From positions 1-40,405 of IMG/VR virus record IMGVR_UViG_3300021127_000016: a stretch of DNA of 40,405 nt; one strand, given 5' to 3'. The stretch is from a virus. The notes beneath the pieces were generated by a model, which worked only from the letters and a program-made list of their open reading frames with translations, was not told the origin of the DNA and did no database searches. A program made the position numbers and the translations under genes. This document shows, piece by piece, positions 1 through 40,405 of the stretch (its first letter is position 1; the number at the start of each line of letters is the position of its first letter).

Positions 1-99
1 GGGTCAAGTTTCGTGAAACGTGGATTTGTTGACGGTTTTATACACAAAATCTTCGCAACCTGAAAATGGTCTGCCGACAACATCATCATTCCAATTCTA
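1..99. repeat. Left copy of the 99-bp terminal direct repeat (circular-assembly overlap)
   Basis: The first 99 bases are identical to 40307..40405. The repeat lies inside a tail gene whose frame continues correctly across the join, so it marks the overlap of a circular or circularly permuted genome of 40,306 bp. A biological terminal repeat cannot be excluded from sequence alone. Confidence 0.95.
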
Positions 100-10921: not shown

Positions 10922-11146
10922 CTACAATTTTTTCTTTTTGTTGTACTTCGCAATAATGTCCGATTTTTCGGCGTCTGTGAATTGTTCGAAAAACTTCCGA
11001 ATCAACATATCAATCGCCTTCGAATCTGTTTGTTTGCCGTGGAAAAATGCACGGAACAAAAGAAAATAATGTTCGGAAGGATAAGAAGACAACCGCCGAC
11101 GGTTGCTGGTTGTCTTCTTATAATTTTTGCCGTTTATTTTAGCCAT
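10922..11146 (-). CDS. Small basic hypothetical protein upstream of capsid
   Basis: 74 residues beginning MAKINGKNYKKTTSN, Lys/Arg-rich at both ends, with an aromatic middle (YPSEHYFLLFRAFFHG) and a short helical C-terminal half. It starts 1 bp after the probable scaffold gene. A 14-bp perfect inverted repeat lies within its 5' coding part (11081..11121). Function unknown; a small capsid accessory protein is possible from position. Confidence 0.72.
   Translation of the reverse strand: MAKINGKNYKKTTSNRRRLSSYPSEHYFLLFRAFFHGKQTDSKAIDMLIRKFFEQFTDAEKSDIIAKYNKKKKL
11081..11121 (-). other. 14-bp perfect inverted repeat inside a coding region
   Basis: ATAAGAAGACAACC (11081..11094) and GGTTGTCTTCTTAT (11108..11121) are exact reverse complements around a 13-nt loop. 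Within it a competing short hairpin AACCG/CGGTT (11091..11095 with 11100..11104) can form. The structure begins about 25 nt after the start codon of the 10922..11146 gene. No T-run follows, so it is not a standard terminator; RNA processing or translation control upstream of the capsid gene is possible. Confidence 0.7.
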
Positions 11147-18015: not shown

Positions 18016-18235
18016 AAATAAGTTTTATTTGTTCGAGCATTATTTCGACGTCAGCAATTTCTTCCGCAACGTTATCTTTTGCCTTTTTAATTAAATCGGT
18101 GTTTCGTCCGTCTTTTCCAACAAAACGCAATTTCAAAATTGCTTGGGTCAATTCAGCCAATTCTTCAATTGTTTTCAACGTTTGCTCCTCGCTTCCATAG
18201 AATGCGATTGCGTTGGATAAAGTTTCAATATTCAT
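17945..18235 (-). CDS. MazG-like nucleotide pyrophosphohydrolase
   Basis: 96 residues. The helical motif EELAELTQAI (about 24-33) and EEIADVEIMLEQI (about 58-70) give the paired E-x-x-E ... E-x-x-D metal-binding pattern of all-alpha NTP pyrophosphatases. Phage MazG-like enzymes hydrolyse non-canonical or regulatory nucleotides and may blunt host stress signalling. Its ATG overlaps the stop of the ribbon-helix-helix gene (ATGA). Assigned from the motif; substrate unknown. Confidence 0.85.
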   Translation of the reverse strand: MNIETLSNAIAFYGSEEQTLKTIEELAELTQAILKLRFVGKDGRNTDLIKKAKDNVAEEIADVEIMLEQIKLIYGNTKLVKTYKKNKIERLAERIG

Positions 18236-18420
18236 TCTATTATATTTTCAATGTGTAAATCGTTGGAGTTCAAACGTTTGTCGTTGGTCCCTTGAACGTT
18301 TACTTCCTTTTCGACGCAAAAACGAATGAATTCTGACGTTGAACCGAACACGATTGCGCGTTGTTTTAGTTTTTCGTACGTTTTTTCCTCCAAACGTACC
18401 TGAATAGTCCTTGTTTTCAT
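18232..18420 (-). CDS. Ribbon-helix-helix DNA-binding protein
   Basis: 62 residues from MKTRTIQVRLEEKTY. The N-terminal strand TRTIQVRL followed by two helices (KTYEKLKQRAIVFGSTSEFIRFCVEKEV) is the CopG/Arc/ParG-like ribbon-helix-helix fold, which binds operators as dimers. The gene starts just below tandem TTTGTACTAC repeats (18421..18453), and a promoter box overlaps them. Self-repression through these repeats, as for plasmid CopG or omega regulators, is a natural inference. A start three codons upstream at 18429 is less likely because it would lie inside the promoter. Confidence 0.88.
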   Translation of the reverse strand: MKTRTIQVRLEEKTYEKLKQRAIVFGSTSEFIRFCVEKEVNVQGTNDKRLNSNDLHIENIIE

Positions 18421-18426
18421 TAGGTA

Positions 18427-18434
18427 CAAATGTA
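18427..18434 (-). promoter_or_regulatory. Promoter box for the RHH/MazG/nuclease/packaging operon
   Basis: The minus strand reads TACATTTG, then TACCTA, then the ATG of the ribbon-helix-helix gene, so the transcript would be leaderless or nearly so. The box lies within the tandem TTTGTACTAC repeats, so a protein bound there would block it. Confidence 0.55.
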
Positions 18435-18473
18435 GTACAAAATGTAGTACAAAACACGAAATCGCGAAAATTT

Positions 18474-18739
18474 TGTAACACCTGTAACACCTGTAACACC
18501 AACTTTTAATAGGCAGGACAAAAACGAAAAATCATTTCATTTTTGTAGTACAATTTGTGTTCAGTGCTTTTCCTATTAACTCTTTTAGTTGTTTTTGTAT
18601 TTTTGCTGTTACAGTGGCTCTAATCGAATGGTTTTCAATCGGTTACGTGTAACAGCACTGCTGTTACAGTGCTGTTACAGCTGTTACAAAAAAATGTTAC
18701 ATGGTTGGTTTACAAAGAGTTAACAAAAATTTTGTAACA
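18474..18739. repeat. Ten TGTAACA/TGTTACA elements, including three tandem 9-mers
   Basis: TGTAACACC is repeated three times head to tail at 18474..18500. Further TGTAACA copies are at 18648 and 18733. Inverted copies (TGTTACA) are at 18607, 18662, 18673, 18682 and 18695. GTTAC-GT-GTAAC at 18642..18653 is itself a small dyad. The elements fill the left half of the gene-free block and are distinct from the TTTGTASTACAAA family. Confidence 0.88.
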
Positions 18740-18805
18740 GCACTTTTTCGCGAAATGGCAAAAAAATAATTGACGGATTCGCAATTTGTAGTACAAAATG
18801 CAAAA

Positions 18806-18859
18806 CATACACTAAAATACACCCCTTTTGTACTACAAATAGGTGTATGCTGGTGTATG
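18806..18859. repeat. 54-bp nested dyad centred on TTTGTACTACAAA
   Basis: CATACAC (18806..18812) matches GTGTATG (18853..18859), and ATACACC (18817..18823) matches GGTGTAT (18842..18848). Both pairs share the same centre, 18832.5, which falls on the perfect element TTTGTACTACAAA (18827..18839). The pattern suggests cooperative protein binding or a cruciform within the origin-like region. Confidence 0.82.
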
Positions 18860-18895
18860 TTTTTGGTGTTTTTTGGGCAAAAAAAAAGTGTGTAG

Positions 18896-18922
18896 TACAA
18901 AAAAAGGGCAAAATTGCCCTTT
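18896..18922 (-). terminator. Terminator closing the early/replication operon
   Basis: The stem AAAGGGCAA/TTGCCCTTT (18903..18911 with 18914..18922) is followed on the minus strand by a run of seven T. It lies about 40 bp beyond the stop of the last early gene and separates that operon from the repeat block. Confidence 0.85.
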
Positions 18923-18963
18923 AATTTAACATTTGTAGTACAAAACGCAAAAAGCGTAAAAAG

Positions 18964-19860: not shown

Positions 19861-22065
19861 TTAAAAAGGTAAATTTTCGGGCGGGGGCGATTGCATTATA
19901 TTTTCGTTGCGTTTCTTGACGTGGTAAGTTCGCGCGACGGTTGAACCGATTCGTTTCAAAACCTGATTGAAACCCATGTTTTTCAATTCCGCCCCCAGTT
20001 TTGTGTAGTTGAAAATTCTTTGAGCAGAGTTGGTTTCGATGTAGTTTTTAATTTGTGTATTGGTCATATATTCGCCGTCATATTCCGAATTCGGCTTCAT
20101 GAAATGTGTGTCAATCAACTCCGCTTCTGGGTTCGTTGCAATGAAATTGTCCGACGATTGTTTAAGGAGTTCAATGTCGGCGGAAGTGAATTGCCATTTG
20201 TACCCAGATTTGTAAAGGTCATAAAATGCCATAAATAACGCGTTTTTGTCGATTGCGTTATATTTCGCATGGTCGATTGAAAGGACGTTTATTGGAACAA
20301 TACGTCGGTTGCCCGTTGGGTCTGAAATAAGGTTCAGGTCGTTCGTCGTTCCGCACAACACAGAAATACGCTTCATTTCCTTGTGTGAACGTCCATAAGG
20401 TAAACGAATCGAAAATGATTGTTTAGACGTCAATTCTTTCAACCGACGTGCCTCCTGTTTTGATTTTCCGCCGAATTCGTCGTCCATTATAACCAACTTT
20501 TTACACATAAGAATATCGTCGTCCTTGCCCATATCCAATTTTGATTCAGCGTAATATGGCTGTAATGCTGTGGGCAATAATCGACGAAAAAATTCGGTCT
20601 TGCCAGTATTTTGCCGCTCACCAGCCAAGACCAATACCAATGGCGAATATATGCCGTGTGCTGAAGAAATGATTCCGACGCCCCATTGCGTGAGCCATTT
20701 TAGGACGTTTGGCGTGTCGGTGTTAATGCAATCTGCAAGTTGTTCAATTAGTGCGGTTGACCGTTGGACATTTTTCGCCTCTTGAAAAAACTCAAAAAAT
20801 GGGTTATATTGTTCGATATATTCGGAAAAAATATATTTCGTGAAATAATCGAACGAAATTTTTTGTCCCTCGGTTGACGTCGTCAAATTAATGAACATGG
20901 TGTTCAATTCCATGTCGTTGATTATTTTTGGCAATCCGTCAATCAAAACGTTTCGGTCTTCGAAATTGTTTGTAATTACGTTGAATCGGATTCTGTAATT
21001 CGACTGCAAGAACAACTGAATTATTTCCGCCTGTGTTTCGCCGACCATTTCAAGGGAAACGTTTTTTTCAAAAACCGCCGTCGCGACCTCTTCCGCCAAC
21101 TGGACGTCAAGACCCGAATCTTGGGCAATCTTAACAACCGAATCCTTCGAACGCGATTGTTTTTTCGCCATTTTCGAAATGTTCTCCAATTGGTATGACT
21201 GCTTAGATTTCAATTCAATTCCAGCCATTTTTGCCAAATGGTAAAATGAACCTATTCGGATTTTAGTCGCACCGCCGTCGCGGATACAATAAGTGAATTG
21301 TTTGTCGCAATTCTTTTCCTCATATTTCGAATTTTGTGAACAAATCGCGTGAAAATAACGACGACCTCCTTCGTGGAATTCAGAAGCCAACGCAAACCCG
21401 ATTGTCAAATAATTTTGGTATTCACCACTCGTTAAATCCTTGCCCGACGTGACAATGTTTTGAATCAATTGTTCGAATTCGTTGCCCGTCAAAACCGTTG
21501 CAAATGATTTCGGTTCGCGTTCCTTTTTTGGGTATTCTTTGAAAACCTTTGCTTTTTGGTTAATAAAAAGGTTTTGGTCAATGGAAAGAAAACGAAGACG
21601 GCTGACATTCGAACAACTTTTGTCAATCAATTGCGTGTACGTCCTAAAATAATAGTTTTTTAAACCATTGTACGCGTCAGCGTGTCGGTTGGCGTCGATA
21701 CGAACCAGCGCAGCCAATCCCTCGCCAGAAGCCGAATAAAGAACCGAATACGTGTATTGGTCGTTCTCCAAAGTCGTTTTGAAATCTGAAATATTTTCAA
21801 CGTGGTCAAAATCGATGCAAATAAAACCCGAATGTTGTTTCAAATTCGCATTAGCAACCTTTTCGTTGAACGTCCCTGAAATGGTAACCGCAGGAATTCT
21901 ATTTTTTAACCGTGTGCGGACGTCCTTCGGTTGCCCCTTGGATTCTCGAAACGCGTTAATTTCTTCCGAAAATCGTCCTGTTCTGACGTCGTTCAAATAT
22001 TCGCGAATGTCGATTTCTTGGAAATCGGTCGGCGACATGATGTTTTTTAGAAAATTGATTTTCAT
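19861..22065 (-). CDS. Primase-helicase (BT4734-type N terminus plus VirE/SF3-like ATPase)
   Basis: 734 residues from MKINFLKNIMSPTDF; this ATG overlaps the upstream stop (ATGA), so it is preferred over a start 11 codons earlier. The N-terminal domain has FICIDFDHVENI (about 81-92) and YSASGEGLAALVRI, the pattern of BT4734-family primase-like domains. The C-terminal virulence-associated-E ATPase has Walker A GERQNTGKT (near 483) and Walker B LVIMDDEFGG (near 525), then CGTTNDLNLISDPTGNRR with the arginine finger. Together they would prime and unwind DNA. It ends in PPPENLPF, resembling an SSB tip. Confidence 0.92.
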   Translation of the reverse strand: MKINFLKNIMSPTDFQEIDIREYLNDVRTGRFSEEINAFRESKGQPKDVRTRLKNRIPAVTISGTFNEKVANANLKQHSGFICIDFDHVENISDFKTTLENDQYTYSVLYSASGEGLAALVRIDANRHADAYNGLKNYYFRTYTQLIDKSCSNVSRLRFLSIDQNLFINQKAKVFKEYPKKEREPKSFATVLTGNEFEQLIQNIVTSGKDLTSGEYQNYLTIGFALASEFHEGGRRYFHAICSQNSKYEEKNCDKQFTYCIRDGGATKIRIGSFYHLAKMAGIELKSKQSYQLENISKMAKKQSRSKDSVVKIAQDSGLDVQLAEEVATAVFEKNVSLEMVGETQAEIIQLFLQSNYRIRFNVITNNFEDRNVLIDGLPKIINDMELNTMFINLTTSTEGQKISFDYFTKYIFSEYIEQYNPFFEFFQEAKNVQRSTALIEQLADCINTDTPNVLKWLTQWGVGIISSAHGIYSPLVLVLAGERQNTGKTEFFRRLLPTALQPYYAESKLDMGKDDDILMCKKLVIMDDEFGGKSKQEARRLKELTSKQSFSIRLPYGRSHKEMKRISVLCGTTNDLNLISDPTGNRRIVPINVLSIDHAKYNAIDKNALFMAFYDLYKSGYKWQFTSADIELLKQSSDNFIATNPEAELIDTHFMKPNSEYDGEYMTNTQIKNYIETNSAQRIFNYTKLGAELKNMGFNQVLKRIGSTVARTYHVKKRNENIMQSPPPENLPF

Positions 22066-22361
22066 ACGCCGAAACCAGATTTGTAAATTTTGGAACAAAG
22101 GTTGGCGTAAAAAATATCGTCACCCCACTTTTGCAACGCCTCGTCCCCTCCGATTTCACGTTTGTGGCGATTAATAAATTCTACGGTTTGCGTTATTTCC
22201 CAAACTTTAGCTTTTGAATCGTTGGCGTTTGGAACGACAGACATCTTGGATTGGCGAATCAGTTGTTGACAAAAACAACAATTTATTGAAACGAGGTCAG
22301 TCTGTGGTATTGGATAATAGCGAGGAGGAAGCGTTTTTTTACATTTTGCGCAGGTTTCCAT
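22062..22361 (-). CDS. Zinc-finger-like small protein
   Basis: 99 residues beginning METCAKCKKTLPPRYY, with a second pair in NCCFCQQLIRQ, giving a four-Cys zinc site. The rest is helical (EITQTVEFINRHKREIGG). Its stop overlaps the ATG of the primase-helicase. The bases after its start codon (AAACCTGCG) repeat a motif found at other early start codons. Likely a small replication accessory protein; function unproven. Confidence 0.78.
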   Translation of the reverse strand: METCAKCKKTLPPRYYPIPQTDLVSINCCFCQQLIRQSKMSVVPNANDSKAKVWEITQTVEFINRHKREIGGDEALQKWGDDIFYANLCSKIYKSGFGV

Positions 22362-22376
22362 AGGTGAAGAACAATA

Positions 22377-22469
22377 TTAAATATTAACGCCACGACCAGT
22401 TTTGAGATTGAAAAACCTGCGAAGTTGAAAAATCAAAAAACGGTCGGGCGTTAAATTCTTGAATGTCAT
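22377..22469 (-). CDS. 30-residue leader peptide candidate
   Basis: ATG at 22467..22469, TAA at 22377..22379, encoding MTFKNLTPDRFLIFQ followed by LRRFFNLKTGRGVNI. The ATG has the AACCTGCGAAATC leader seen at other early genes and lies 29 nt below a promoter box. The whole ORF is threaded through the interleaved inverted repeats at 22384..22482, so translating it would unfold the structure. It may be a regulatory leader ORF or chance. Confidence 0.4.
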   Translation of the reverse strand: MTFKNLTPDRFLIFQLRRFFNLKTGRGVNI

Positions 22470-22482
22470 GATTTCGCAGGTT
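22384..22482 (-). ncRNA. Interleaved inverted repeats: candidate pseudoknot leader RNA
   Basis: Arm A TTAACGCC-a-CGACC (22384..22397) pairs with GGTCG-GGCGTTAA (22442..22454): 13 bp with one bulge. Arm B AACCTGCGAA (22414..22423) pairs perfectly with TTCGCAGGTT (22473..22482). The pairs interleave, so together they can form an H-type pseudoknot. It lies in the 150-bp gap between helicase and zinc-finger genes, behind a promoter box. No known riboswitch class was recognised. Confidence 0.62.
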
Positions 22483-22497
22483 GTATTGATTTGGTTG

Positions 22498-22505
22498 CAA
22501 ATGTA
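22498..22505 (-). promoter_or_regulatory. Internal early promoter box
   Basis: The minus strand reads TACATTTG (TAnnTTTG), 10 bp beyond the helicase stop. A start near 22491 would place the pseudoknot and leader ORF at the 5' end of a transcript for the primase-helicase genes. The -33 region is weak. Confidence 0.5.
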
Positions 22506-22514
22506 ACAATAAAA

Positions 22515-23936
22515 CTAATTCAATGTAGGTTGTTTAATAAAAAAATTTGCAGGAGGTTCGGTTTGACACAATTTTTGGATTTTACGTTCGCGATAACCGT
22601 CCTTGTATTGTTTCGTGTCCCAAAATCGTTCCAACCCTCCTTCGAGTTTTTGATTATGGTACAAAACCATTTCAACAAAAAACTGTTTGTATTTTTTAAG
22701 ACGCGCGAGGTCGAAAAGTTCGTCGTAATTCAAATCGTACAATTGGCGACCTTTAAGCGTTTTGTAGGCAATTTCAACCAATTCCCCTTCTGTCGGCGGA
22801 ATGGTTTTTTTGTCGAATTCGTATTGACAAAATTCACACACACGCGCCGACGCCGAAACAACTGCTTCGCATTTTGGACATTCCTTGATTGCTGGGGCTT
22901 TTGATTGTGCCTTTTTTACGTCCTTGGCAAAAAATATTTTCCGCCAATCGCGGTCTTGTTCCCAGTGTCCCAAACGTGGCACGTTTTCGCCGTAATCCCA
23001 AATTTGAAACGTATTTTTCGTTGGTGTAACGCGTGAACCACGACCGCACATTTGCAACCAAAGGGCAACGGACATTGTTGCACGGTTTATGATAACCAAC
23101 CGAATGTCGGGGACGTCGAACCCAGTTGTGGCAATGGAAGCGTTCACCAATACGCCGTTTAGTGAATGTGTGAATGCATCGATATTTTCGTCACGAATTG
23201 ACGTTTTTTGTTTTGAATGCACCAACCAAGTTTTTATACCGTGCCGTTGAAATTCGTTGAACGTATGTTCTGCGTGGTCAATGTTGACGCAAAAAACAAT
23301 CGTTTTCATTCCTTCGCCCTTTTTGACGTAATCCTCAACAACGCCCAAATATGTTTTCGGTTTGTTGAATAATTGGTCGAGTGTCTCCTTTGAAAAATCG
23401 TCGCCCTTTACTTTCAACGTTGAAAAATCGGCGTCAACCGCTTTTTTCAAAAACGTTCGTGGTTTGGAAAGGAATCCAAGGTCGATAAGTTCAGGAATAT
23501 CAACAGGGCAAACAATTTCATTGAACAAATTGCACATTGACGGCTTTGTTATTGGCGTGGCGGTTGCGCCAATGACGTAACCTGTATAATGCGCCAAAAC
23601 CTTTTTGAAATTGCCAATATGTGCTTCGTCAATAATAAGGAGGTCGAAGTTGTTAATGTTAACAGCCCCACTTTCAATTTGGTTAAAAATAGTTTCAACC
23701 ATTCCGATTTTACAACCATTGTTGTTGAATTTTGACGCTTGTTTGACCAATTCTTTTCGGTGTGTCAAAATCAAAACCTTTTTGCCTTTCATGAATGCCT
23801 TCCAAGCGATTTCGGAAAACACAACCGTCTTTCCTCCTCCTGTCGGAAGGCAAAGGACAACGCGTTTGAAACCTTTCGCGAACATTTCCTGAATCAGCGC
23901 CGTGCAGTCGTTTTGGTATTTTCGGAGTTGGGTCAT
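22515..23936 (-). CDS. SF2 DEAH-box helicase with C-terminal zinc ribbon
   Basis: 473 residues. Motif I is PTGGGKTV (31-38), motif II DEAH (103-106) within LLIIDEAHIG, motif III GATATP (123-128), and motif VI QMCGRGSR (295-302) after TTGFDVPDIRL. A four-Cys ribbon follows (Cys 353, 356, 367, 370: CPKC...CEFC). This is the RadD/UvsW/Ssl2-like layout of phage branch-migration or origin-opening helicases. It sits between recombination genes and the primase-helicase. Start MTQLRKYQNDC is the family's usual Q-motif beginning. Confidence 0.94.
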   Translation of the reverse strand: MTQLRKYQNDCTALIQEMFAKGFKRVVLCLPTGGGKTVVFSEIAWKAFMKGKKVLILTHRKELVKQASKFNNNGCKIGMVETIFNQIESGAVNINNFDLLIIDEAHIGNFKKVLAHYTGYVIGATATPITKPSMCNLFNEIVCPVDIPELIDLGFLSKPRTFLKKAVDADFSTLKVKGDDFSKETLDQLFNKPKTYLGVVEDYVKKGEGMKTIVFCVNIDHAEHTFNEFQRHGIKTWLVHSKQKTSIRDENIDAFTHSLNGVLVNASIATTGFDVPDIRLVIINRATMSVALWLQMCGRGSRVTPTKNTFQIWDYGENVPRLGHWEQDRDWRKIFFAKDVKKAQSKAPAIKECPKCEAVVSASARVCEFCQYEFDKKTIPPTEGELVEIAYKTLKGRQLYDLNYDELFDLARLKKYKQFFVEMVLYHNQKLEGGLERFWDTKQYKDGYRERKIQKLCQTEPPANFFIKQPTLN

Positions 23937-28360: not shown

Positions 28361-28754
28361 TGTTATTGATTTTTTGGTTTATAAACTCTTGAAATTGGAT
28401 GGCTTTACTTCCTTCAATGCTTCGAATGTCAATTTGTGATTTTATGGTTCTAATTCCGTGCAGAACCGTTGCGTGGTCGAGGTTCATTGCTTTGCCAATT
28501 GTTTCCAACGAATAATTGACACGTTTGTTTGTATAGATAACAAACATTACGCAATGCCGAGCGAAAACAAAATCGCGTTTGCGGTTTTTTTGGATTAACT
28601 TTTCGCGTGGCATTTGAAAATATTCACACGCCAATTCAATGAACTCGGACACCGTAGGCGGAAGGCGAAAAATATGTGTTTGAACGTATTGAATTTCTGG
28701 AATTAGCATATAAGACACCGCCTTCATGCTTACTTCATGCGCCTGTAATTTCAT
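28338..28754 (-). CDS. Stand-alone DnaA domain IV-like DNA-binding protein
   Basis: 138 residues from MKLQAHEVSMKAV; this ATG overlaps the previous stop (ATGA). The C-terminal half, RKRDFVFARHCVMFVIY ... YSLETIGKAMNLDHATVLHG, closely follows the DnaA C-terminal domain that reads DnaA boxes (the signature normally ends DHTTVLHA). There is no AAA+ domain, so it is a bare DNA-binding module with a short N-terminal extension. It may recognise the phage origin or recruit host factors. A start at 28775 would overlap the upstream gene by 25 bp. Confidence 0.87.
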   Translation of the reverse strand: MKLQAHEVSMKAVSYMLIPEIQYVQTHIFRLPPTVSEFIELACEYFQMPREKLIQKNRKRDFVFARHCVMFVIYTNKRVNYSLETIGKAMNLDHATVLHGIRTIKSQIDIRSIEGSKAIQFQEFINQKINNNGKNQTN

Positions 28755-28990
28755 TTGAAAGCGTTGTTTAACCACATGATTGAATTCATTGCTTGGTCGT
28801 ATTCAGAATAGAATTCCGCCTCGGTACAATCCTTGTATTTCTCGATTTGGTCAATCGAAAGGGCGTCGGAATACACGAGTTGGATTTGTTTTTTGCCCTT
28901 CATATTCAACACAAAAATGTATTGTTCACGGTTGAGAATTTTGAACACTGAACCGTTTAACGGGGATTTGATAAATTTTGGAAATTCCAT
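28751..28990 (-). CDS. Small early hypothetical protein
   Basis: 79 residues beginning MEFPKFIKSPLNGSVF, mixed alpha/beta and without a membrane segment. It ends by overlapping the DnaA-like gene by 4 bp. The leader carries ATTAACCAATAAAAAAACCTGCAAATC immediately before the ATG, combining the A/C-rich leader with the AACCTGC motif shared by other early genes. No family recognised. Confidence 0.77.
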   Translation of the reverse strand: MEFPKFIKSPLNGSVFKILNREQYIFVLNMKGKKQIQLVYSDALSIDQIEKYKDCTEAEFYSEYDQAMNSIMWLNNAFK

Positions 28991-29303: not shown

Positions 29304-29334
29304 CAAATATACAAACGTTTTTTAATTGTGCAAT
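29304..29334 (-). promoter_or_regulatory. Main early promoter (Bacteroidota type)
   Basis: The minus strand has ATTG (29331..29334), 19 bp, then TATATTTG (29304..29311), a near-ideal match to TTTG-N19-TAnnTTTG. A start near 29298 gives a leader of about 25 nt to the first early gene. It lies in a 127-bp A/T-rich divergent region shared with the regulator on the other strand. Confidence 0.75.
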
Positions 29335-29387
29335 AAAAATAATACATTTTGTTAAAAAAATAAATATTTTTTTTCTTGATTTATATG

Positions 29388-29395
29388 TATTTTTG
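29388..29395 (+). promoter_or_regulatory. Promoter box of the Cro/CI-like regulator, overlapping TTTGTACTA
   Basis: The plus strand reads TATTTTTG, then TACT, then the ATG at 29400, so the transcript would be leaderless. TTTGTACTA (29392..29400) matches nine bases of the repeat element at the putative origin. No -33 box is clear. Confidence 0.55.
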
Positions 29396-29399
29396 TACT

Positions 29400-29567
29400 A
29401 TGAACGCCGAAACAATTAAAAACGCTGTCGCAGACAGCGGATATAAACAAAAGTACATTGCCGAAAAAATAGGCATTACACCCACATATTTGAACAACAT
29501 ATTGAACGGCAAAAGGCCGTTGAAATTACATATTGAAAAAAAGATTGTTGAATTACTTGGATTGTGA
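29400..29567 (+). CDS. Cro/CI-type (XRE) helix-turn-helix regulator
   Basis: 55 residues: MNAETIKNAVADSGYKQ, then KYIAEKIGITPTYLNNILNG as the helix-turn-helix, ending IVELLGL. It is a bare HTH domain with no extra dimerisation or ligand domain. It is the only gene on the plus strand, divergent from the early promoter and overlapping the phospholipase 3' end by 15 bp. Genes so placed usually set the early/late or lysis/lysogeny switch. An upstream ATG at 29376 would put the promoter inside the gene. No integrase accompanies it, so it may only time transcription. Confidence 0.88.
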   Translation: MNAETIKNAVADSGYKQKYIAEKIGITPTYLNNILNGKRPLKLHIEKKIVELLGL

Positions 29568-32425: not shown

Positions 32426-35400
32426 TCAATATAAAGTTGCCCAAATTCCGTTTGTTGTTGTTGCAAATCCAGACGTTGCGGAGGATATTGATGACGGCGG
32501 TGTCGTTCCGCTGAATGTATTCAATCTTGCCTCGGTGAACGAATTGTTTGTGTAATCTAAAACAGATAATCCTGATTGATAAGCCGTGGTTGCTGAAAAC
32601 TTAAAAGGTCCTGAACCCATTGAACCTGCCATATAAAAAACTATGTAGTAAATACCTGCAGGTGCAACGGAAGACGAATAATTGTTCAATCCCCCGAATG
32701 TCAATGATTGATTTCCACTGTTTGCAATCCACGAAACGCCAGTTGTCGAATACGCTTGTAAAGTTAACGTTCCTGCCGAATACGAATACAATGCAACTCC
32801 GCAATAATTCGTTGACGACGAACCAGACGCTGGTTGGTAACAATTATATTTTACTCCCGTCAATGTTGTTGCCGTTGGTAAATATACTCCTATCATGTAC
32901 GCGTACCCACTCGAAGCGGTCAGTCCTGTGTTAACCATTTGAGGTGTCATTCCAATTGGCATTGCTTTTATTGTTGAGCCAAGCAAACCAATTGATGTTA
33001 AATTTGGATTTGGAACACTCGACCAACTCGCATTTCCCGAAGCGTCAGACGTCAAGACGTTACCTAAAGCAGGTGTACCGTACGGATATTTCATTTGACC
33101 CGAACCGTCAATCGAAAATCCAAGTGTGTTCGAACTGTTTTCAACACGAAGCGACGTGTACAAATTCGTGTTTCCTGTCCCTGTCACGTGCAATGTTGCT
33201 GTCGGCGTGGATTGATTAATTCCTAATTTTAACGTATTCGTGCCGTCTGAAATATTACCTAAATGAGAAGCAGAGACTGTTGCACCTGAACCAATTGCAA
33301 CACAATAAGATAAACCGTTTGCTGACATATCGCAACCATACCCGAGAAATGTATTATAAGAACCTGATATATTTGTATGTGTACCTGCATTATAACCAAT
33401 CGCTGTGTTTCCCGTGCCGTAATATGTTGTACTAAGTGCATTATAACCAATACCAACCGACCCCAAAGAATTGGCTGCATAAACACCAGCATTATAACCG
33501 ATACCAACTGAATAGCCATTTCCGTATGAACCATTTCCTGTATTTAAAGCCTGATAACCAATACCAACATTCCCAGTACAATTACTACCTTGACAAGCAT
33601 TTGACCCAATAGAAACATTTGAACTTCCACTCGTAACTCCCGCTTCGTAACCAATACCCACATTTTTATTGTCAGTTGTTATATTTTGCAAACAATATAG
33701 CCCTATACCAACATTCCCCCCTCCTGATGTTAAACTTTGCAATGTTTTATAACCCATTCCAATATTATAATTTCCACTCAAAGCCCCTTGATAAATTTGA
33801 TAACCAATACCAATATTTATATATCCACCAGTCCCAATTTGTGAACCAATCAATGTATTGTTGTAATTTTCACCGAGTGTTCCAACTTGATATCCCAAGG
33901 TAGTTGAACCGTTTGGGTTTATTGCTCCTGAATAAGTATTATTAACTTTGAACGCAAGTCCAACGTTATCAGTTGTTCCAATAAAATTAGTTCCCAATGT
34001 AGTGCCTGAATTTCCCGACAACGACCAACCTGACGACGGTGTTGCCCAAGTTCCGTCGCCACGCCAAAACGTTGTTGAACTCGCGGACGTTCCGCCGTTC
34101 AAATTGCTCACAGGCAAATTTCCAGTAACGCCACCGTTTCCGCTTGACGCAAGATTGACGGCAGGAATATCCGCGCCAACCAATGCACGAAACGTCGGAG
34201 TTCCACTCGAGCCGTTTGGATTTGCAAAAACATAATTTGCCGAGCCAGAAGCTAATGACAACGTCCCAGTTGCTGTATGCGACGATTTTGTCAACGACAA
34301 TGACGAAGACGAAAACAACGCCGACGGAACGGTCAACGTAATCGAACTATCAATTGTATTCGGAAGGTCGATTGCATAAATACTTCGAAAACTTGGAATT
34401 GTTGTCCCTGAAGTATAGCCTCCGAAAAATTGCCGAGCAGATTGGTTCGCAAGTGAAGCCGAAAACGTCCCGCTTGTAGTAATTGGACTCCCACTTAACG
34501 AAAATATCGAAGGTAACGAAAGACCTACCGACGTGACGCTTCCCGAACCTTTACCGTTAAACGTGTTCCAATCCGCGCTTGACAAATATCCGTTTGTTGA
34601 CGCCGTTGCTTGTGAAATCGAAAACACGCCAGTTAAATTATTGTAGGACAACGGCGACGTTGCGGACAATGACGTCAACCCAATAACCGATTTCCAACCC
34701 AACGTACTCGCGTTATCAATACTATACAAAACTTGTCCTGCCGTTGGAGTTGCGCTCGGAAGCGTCATGATTGTATTCGCTGACGGCGCACCAGCAATGA
34801 TTGAAGTTGAATAAATATTTGAGCCGTTATACAAAACCAATGAACCGTTGTAACTCCCTGCGCTTCCAGACGTCAAACTTAAATCGCCAGTTAATGCCGT
34901 TGCTTCCAATGTGTTTCCAAGGACAACTTTTTTTGTTGAACCAACAAACGGAACAAATTGGTTATTTGCTCTCGATTGGCTTTCAACAATTGACGTGTCT
35001 GTGTTCAATGTTATTTTTGTTCCTGTAACGATTTTTTTTATTGCGTAACCATTCACAACCGAACTATCAACGTATTGAGGAATATTGAGCGTTGAACCCG
35101 ACAAAGTACTTGCGCCAGAAGTTCCTGACGTTGTCAATGTGATTGCGTTTTGTTTGCCGTTGAATGTCGTCCAATCTGAACTTGCCAAATAGCCATTGGC
35201 TGAACTCGTTGCAACTGGTATTGAAAACACACCAGTCGAATTGTTGTATGCCAATGGTGACGTTGCGGATAAGTTAGTCAATCCAAACGGGTTCACCCAA
35301 CTCAAATTTCCGCTGTTATCCGTTTGCATTATTTGACCCAATGTTCCAGCGGACGGCGGAAGATTCAACGTGTACGACGTTGTGTTGGACGTTGACGTTA

Positions 35401-35833
35401 ATGCCGTGGAATAATAATTCGAAGCGTTTGCCAAATATAACGTTCCCGAAGTTGTGTGCGCCGTTCCAACAGTCACAGACGTTTTGCCGATTGTTGTTGC
35501 TCCAGACAACGTTCCAACATTGGTCAAATTTTTGCCGTTTAAATCAACGTTTTTTGTGGCGTTTGAATATGGCAAAAAACAATTGTAAGCGTAATATTTT
35601 GAAACAAGACCGTTCGCTCCTGTTGTGTCCGCCCAAATAAATATTCCGTAATTGTTCAAAAAATCCGAAATAGCAATTTTTTGCGTTGAACCACTCGCCC
35701 CAGTGTAATAATCCTTAATAAGAAAATCCCCCGTCGTCCCTGTCGTTGTTTGTGGCAAATCCTTTACTTTCGTTTGACCAAAAACGCCCAACGTTGATAT
35801 AAAAAACAATATCAAAAACTTGATTTTTCCCAT
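32426..35833 (-). CDS. Tail fibre / receptor-binding protein with signal peptide and beta-roll repeats
   Basis: 1135 residues. Residues 1-20 ([17 protein letters not shown]) form a signal peptide ending before Gln. Two long repeats contain [15 protein letters not shown] (near 212) and [15 protein letters not shown] (near 415), and GDGTWATP follows, all frequent in Bacteroidota fibres. Residues about 644-861 hold at least ten N-V/I-GIGY-N/Q-A-type units resembling the YadA left-handed beta-roll, which trimerises. The C-terminal 200 residues form a separate beta domain, possibly receptor binding. No self-cleaving chaperone domain was seen. Position after the tail-tip group supports a fibre role. 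Confidence 0.88.
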
Positions 35834-39957: not shown

Positions 39958-40405
39958 TTATGCGCCCGACGGATTCAAGAAAGTTTCTTGCAAATTCAAT
40001 GTCCAAATTTGATAAAACCGAACCTTTATTTCAGCCTTTCCTGACGACCCTGATTGCATTGGCGGTTTGAACTTTATTCGTTCCATTATAGCAGGTGAAA
40101 CGCCGTCAGGTGCGAAAATTTGGTTGTTTGTGACCACGTCAAGAAAGTTTTGCCACGTAAACGGCACACTCGCAAACGTTTTCGTCATTACCTGCGCACC
40201 ATAAGGACGGTCGGAATAAGCAGGATTTATTTGTTTTGGGACAATTGAATTCACATAATGAAAACCGTTCCAATGCGCCAATGCGCTTTCCAATGTAGCG
40301 TTGTTTGGGTCAAGTTTCGTGAAACGTGGATTTGTTGACGGTTTTATACACAAAATCTTCGCAACCTGAAAATGGTCTGCCGACAACATCATCATTCCAA
40401 TTCTA
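39958..40405 (-). CDS. C-terminal part of the tail-tip protein (continues from 1..1640)
   Basis: The frame enters at the right window edge through the repeat copy and ends in WTLNLQETFLNPSGA with its stop at 39958. The MMM at 40387..40395 is internal, as the same frame continues upstream in the circular genome (reading ATIENRIG-MMM). The last 145 residues are beta-rich with no catalytic motif. The unit gene is 1989 bp, 662 residues. Confidence 0.85.
   Translation of the reverse strand, partial: RIGMMMLSADHFQVAKILCIKPSTNPRFTKLDPNNATLESALAHWNGFHYVNSIVPKQINPAYSDRPYGAQVMTKTFASVPFTWQNFLDVVTNNQIFAPDGVSPAIMERIKFKPPMQSGSSGKAEIKVRFYQIWTLNLQETFLNPSGA
40307..40405. repeat. Right copy of the 99-bp terminal direct repeat
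   Basis: Identical to 1..99. In the circular genome these bases occur once. Confidence 0.95.

Follow-up and report, generated by a model that had tools for sequence, protein, structure and literature searches.

A predicted pseudoknot in the leader of a primase operon from a probable Bacteroidetes phage

A gap of 153 bp (22362–22514) in a probably complete phage genome (IMG/VR record IMGVR_UViG_3300021127_000016; the whole stretch of 40,405 nt is called the window here) carries two interleaved inverted repeats directly behind a promoter and ahead of a primase-helicase gene. Anatomy and statistics both give good support to a reading offered in the first-pass annotation, a leader RNA, here a structured one at the 5′ end of the transcript from this promoter. 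A function at the RNA level is likely. For the mechanism, we infer a cis-acting translational switch at the head of the primase operon on the minus strand (probability about 0.4) and favour it over a DNA-level element, a trans-acting RNA, other leader functions and chance.

Results

Genome and gene neighbourhood

An exact direct repeat of 99 bp is present at both ends of the window (1–99 and 40307–40405), from which the sequence is probably a complete phage genome, either circular or terminally redundant. The host is probably a Bacteroidetes bacterium. The large ORFs of the window ORF list lie on the minus strand. Two further repeats were noted within ORFs: a direct repeat of 134 bp (34550–34683 and 35153–35286, 73% identical) in the 1135-aa ORF at 32426–35833, and a 41-nt inverted repeat (11081–11121, 83% self-complementary) shortly past the start codon of the ORF at 10922–11146.

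The gap is located between a ResIII/DEAD helicase gene (22515–23936, minus strand), which lies upstream and whose 3′ end is among the promoter elements, and a 99-aa ORF (22062–22361, minus strand) with CxxC-type cysteines (METCAKCK...). The latter is the first clear gene past the leader; it matched no Pfam or PHROGs family, and a search with the protein gave no close relative. It is followed on the minus strand by the VapE-type primase-helicase (19861–22041), which has BT4734-like_N, PriCT_2 and VapE-like domains and belongs to a DNA primase PHROG.

The promoter is of the Bacteroidetes type, for which we use the consensus TTTG/TANNTTTG and its numbering (PMC6847099). The −7 element TACATTTG (22498–22505, minus strand) matches TANNTTTG exactly, and the −33 element TTG (22521–22523, minus strand) precedes the start of the −7 box by 18 nt. 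The box at 22505–22498 is one of only three on the minus strand with a suitably spaced TTG. A promoter box ahead of the arms had been noted earlier; the box is present, with the correction that it lies on the minus strand, the same strand as the genes, so that the RNA would start near 22493–22491, some 10 nt ahead of the first arm (G of the box at −5). With a minus-strand promoter just before the first arm, the element is most naturally read as the 5′ leader of an RNA that carries the 99-aa ORF and the primase-helicase. A stretch of 52 bp at the promoter is similar to sequence in MT837042, where it corresponds to the promoter and leader of a Bacteroidetes-like gene; this distant DNA match was rejected as a relative of the element, the likeness being limited to the promoter and an A-rich leader.

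Interleaved arms

The interleaved inverted repeats claimed in the first-pass annotation are present. Arm X (22442–22454, minus strand), the 5′ strand of the longer stem, makes 13 pairs with arm X′ (22384–22397, minus strand), the 3′ strand with one bulged base; the letters are TTAACGCC-A-CGACC (22384–22397) and GGTCGGGCGTTAA (22442–22454). Arm Y (AACCUGCGAA; 22473–22482, minus strand), the 5′ strand of the shorter stem, makes 10 perfect pairs with its complement Y′ (UUCGCAGGUU; 22414–22423, minus strand); the letters as given are AACCTGCGAA (22414–22423) and TTCGCAGGTT (22473–22482). All stem pairs are Watson-Crick.

To gauge chance, we counted interleaved arms with at least 10 and at least 13 base pairs, one bulge or mismatch being allowed. 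None appeared when the 40-kb window as a whole was dinucleotide-shuffled 40 times or when the gap was shuffled 5,000 times, and none in 914 kb of further loci, mostly phage. The interleaved arms are far beyond chance. The order Y-X-Y′-X′ should also not be producible by one inverted duplication, which yields nested arms.

The only other interleaved hit in the window (18784–18865) is within a repeat-rich non-coding block. This block (18430–18963) contains TGTAGTACAAAA-type sites in both orientations together with CTGTTACAG sites, and is a probable operator, partition or origin region. The adjoining ORF (18232–18420, minus strand) appears by eye to be ribbon-helix-helix-like.

Predicted fold

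In the MFE fold, the minus strand forms a hairpin of about 22 bp with an apical loop of 21 nt (22430–22410). The X stem is extended inwards (22399–22441, minus strand) by GUUUU/AAAAC and GAUU/AAUC; 43 of 2,000 shuffles fold equally well over this inner part (about 2%, a modest value). The hairpin alone folds at z = −5.8 and the whole gap at z = −4.3 (both minus strand). The plus strand of the hairpin (z = −5.1) is near the minus-strand value, so folding does not choose the strand; since, in addition, all pairs are Watson-Crick, the RNA level is not proven. Several other gaps of the phage also fold well, and it is thus the interleaving rather than a good fold that is special here.

Y′ sits in the apical loop, free for pairing with Y in the 5′ tail. 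The Y:Y′ duplex has an energy of −14.7 kcal/mol, and the hairpin with Y and Y′ kept unpaired has −26.4 kcal/mol. The sum of −41.1 kcal/mol compares with −29.8 kcal/mol for the best nested fold, a difference that is only indicative as the loop-closing cost of the pseudoknot is not included. A pseudoknot formed by loop-tail pairing is plausible.

The 30-codon ORF

The ORF list contains a 30-codon ORF (MTFKNLTPDRFLIFQLRRFFNLKTGRGVNI; 22377–22469, minus strand), which is doubtful as a protein gene. It had been described as enclosed by the arms; its start does lie between them, but its stop is just past the last arm. Arm Y spans −13 to −4 relative to the start codon, and A is found at −3, −12 and −13, a favourable context in Bacteroidetes. 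In Flavobacterium, structure in start regions lowers initiation, and A at −3 also tunes it (PMC6847099).

The codon usage of the ORF is non-coding-like. Its score is −5.8 bits; only 0.4% of true-frame pieces are as low, and of the open off-frame pieces 37% reach at least this score. No match was obtained with tblastn. The ORF may be a mere ribosome entry point, or it may be untranslated. Its stop lies 15 nt before the start codon of the 99-aa ORF, which makes translational coupling possible. The hairpin ends 22 nt before the same start codon, so a direct effect on that start is not obvious.

The start-region motif and the loop

The motif AACCTGC occurs on the minus strand at 22482, 29002 and 29284, in each case 4–6 nt before an ATG; the leader of the 30-codon ORF shares AACCTGC...ATG with those of the two ORFs whose start codons are at 28990 and 29273. 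Of the five copies of AACCTGC on the minus strand, three stand at this spacing ahead of an ORF, and a fourth is within the start of the 99-aa ORF. There, a third copy of AACCUGCG (22349–22356, minus strand) is a possible alternative partner of Y′. Many other genes of the phage have leaders of the AACCA(A)TAAA type. A possible base pairing between the motif and 16S rRNA was considered and dropped.

Two further features were noted in this part of the genome. A textbook hammerhead ribozyme (29060–29011, minus strand, stem I open; GGUUAA-CUGACGA-GGCU(UAAAU)AGCC-GAA-AUGCC(GAGA)GGCAU-A^UUAACC) is located 20 nt before the start of the ORF at 28751–28990. Its MFE fold contains all three stems, and it scores below threshold with the Rfam hammerhead models (17.2 and 15.4 bits). 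Hammerheads are known from phages and prophages (PMC3088659). The small ORF at 29376–29567 (plus strand) resembles XRE/Cro-type helix-turn-helix proteins (MNAETIKNAVADSGYKQKYIAEKIG...) and is divergent from a promoter at 29311; by sequence the two are a possible lysis-lysogeny switch.

The four best partners of the apical loop among 48 gene starts are the four starts that bear AACCUGC: 29273 (−19.7 kcal/mol), the start of the 30-codon ORF itself (−16.2 kcal/mol), 22361 (−15.5 kcal/mol) and 28990 (−14.8 kcal/mol), with a median of −6.0 kcal/mol over the 48. Of 1,000 shuffled loops, four pair this strongly with three other starts and two attain the best value. Stretches within genes sometimes pair with the loop as strongly (−19.6 and −17.9 kcal/mol). 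The complementarity to several starts could either follow from the motif they share or point to an antisense loop with several targets.

Searches for related elements

The absence of a known riboswitch class, stated in the first-pass annotation, is borne out: no Rfam family matched at gathering scores, and only chance-level matches appeared at E up to 5. No second copy of the element was found in phage records, plasmids, IMG/VR and GTDB; as records very near the window may be absent from these collections, this is not proof of uniqueness. Relatives found through the primase (about 60% identity) keep the order helicase then primase, with other ORFs between, and do not have the element. GTDB yielded three loci (32–37% identity), and searches with the portal, the helicase and the 99-aa protein gave no close kin. 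A search of the gap with nhmmer against 83 related loci returned nothing below E 0.4, and searches with the primase regions of three other phages (phi46:1, P12024L and mumin6-4) turned up no such arms beside the primase.

Several candidates were rejected. The sole IMG/VR match with the same arms comes from an unrelated phage gene, at whose end it forms an inverted repeat. An 18-mer search with the X arm gave six matches, all from one sequence family in other phages and lacking the second arm, and four matches to the leader motif are in GC-richer, unrelated DNA. Weaker interleaved arms in another helicase-primase gap are inside ORFs and fold at z = −0.8.

Discussion

Proposed function and alternatives

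In the cis-acting translational switch that we favour, the apical loop (Y′) and the 5′ tail (Y) would pair to give an H-type pseudoknot. The 30-codon ORF would thereby have its start region buried, and ribosome entry would drop at the operon's head. The structure could be opened by binding at the loop, whether of ribosomes, a protein or another RNA, and expression of the 99-aa protein and the primase would change. If Y′ paired instead with the third AACCUGCG copy, the start of the 99-aa ORF would be covered. The proposal is weakened by the lack of a homologue, and hence of covariation, by the non-coding-like codon usage of the ORF, and by the second, repeat-rich gap of the phage, which also gives interleaved arms. 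Bacteroidetes mRNAs lack Shine-Dalgarno sequences. A leader that buries a start motif common to several genes would be an example, open to direct test, of how phages of these bacteria tune start sites.

The pure Watson-Crick pairing and the like folding of both strands are what would be expected if the element acted as DNA, with X and Y as spaced protein-binding sites or as part of a replication origin beside the primase genes. There are three copies of AACCTGCG within 140 bp, and probable binding sites are also found in a repeat-rich gap elsewhere in this genome (18430–18950). The spacing of the arm centres, however, is 28–30 bp, which does not amount to whole helical turns; the inner hairpin pairing, itself a modest signal (about 2%), would be superfluous for separate sites, and the arms begin right behind a promoter. 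We consider a DNA-level role doubtful. Slightly more doubtful is a hairpin that is cut from the leader and acts in trans, perhaps in addition, as an antisense RNA whose loop UUUCAACUUCGCAGGUUUUUC lowers translation of the genes with AACCUGC starts; pairing with its own 5′ tail would then be self-control. That the four best of 48 starts bear the motif, and that only 4 of 1,000 shuffled loops match the three others, speak for it. Yet some stretches within genes pair as strongly (−19.6 and −17.9 kcal/mol), and the complementarity is expected anyway if the leaders merely share a motif that Y′ pairs with in cis. There is also no terminator to yield a free small RNA. Of the functions suggested in the first-pass annotation, a small RNA is conceivable as a free species but has no visible 3′ end signal, and an attenuator lacks support, with no terminator-like site in 22000–22700. 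It is unlikely, in our estimate, that the loop is the seed of an antisense RNA against AACCUGC leaders with the 5′-tail pseudoknot as built-in feedback; if true, one RNA would be both a leader switch and a regulator of several genes.

A stable 5′ structure directly behind the promoter at the head of an operon could also serve antitermination, protection of the mRNA 5′ end, or autoregulation as a protein-bound operator, and T4 gp32 does bind a leader pseudoknot (PMC3014915). With no likeness to a known element in Rfam and no partner protein identified, we rate such other leader functions as improbable, on a par with the antisense seed. Chance, or a decayed gene without function, is very improbable. 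It would fit the single copy in all searched data, the non-coding score of the ORF and the other genes that relatives carry in place of the leader; the shuffles and the real-sequence controls argue against it.

Comparison with known systems

The put RNAs of HK022 are two ordinary hairpins that act in antitermination behind an early-operon promoter. The element resembles them as a predicted structured RNA directly behind the promoter of an operon, and differs in being a single long hairpin whose loop would pair with the tail. Type III antitoxin RNAs (ToxI) have a knotted structure, and phage-encoded mimics of these pseudoknot RNAs have reportedly been found; like the mimics, the RNA predicted here would be pseudoknotted and is encoded by a phage. 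Here, however, the knot would be much larger, and there are no tandem repeats and no adjacent toxin-like gene. A ToxI-type antitoxin was rejected: the element is a single unit, and the next ORF is the 99-aa ORF, which has no Pfam or PHROGs match.

Pseudoknots in translational control are rare in DNA phages. In T4, a leader pseudoknot 67 nt upstream of the gene 32 start codon nucleates protein binding, and a 2010 review suggested that translational autoregulation by a viral pseudoknot may be confined to the T4-type gene 32 knot (PMC3014915). As in gene 32, the interleaved arms (a predicted pseudoknot) lie ahead of a phage replication gene, within its 5′ leader, and control of translation is proposed. 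In contrast to gene 32, one stem strand doubles as a start region, the stems, of 10 and 13 or more bp, are longer, and no protein partner has been identified.

In the repY-repZ leader of ColIb-P9 (IncI-alpha), a loop pairs beside repZ and activates it, under the control of an antisense RNA; the leader is reportedly that of Asano and Mizobuchi 1998. Both leaders combine a short ORF that overlaps a hairpin, distant loop pairing (predicted in the present case) and a replication gene downstream. The leader ORF is present here with a good start context, although its codon usage is non-coding-like. Loop pairing just upstream of the replication gene start was not found: the main partner of Y′ is far upstream (22473–22482), where pairing would repress and not activate, and the third copy is inside the 99-aa ORF and not upstream of its start. 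No antisense gene was seen. On this comparison, the nearest known mechanisms would be the T4 gene 32 knot and the repY-repZ leader, as a likeness and not as membership of either class.
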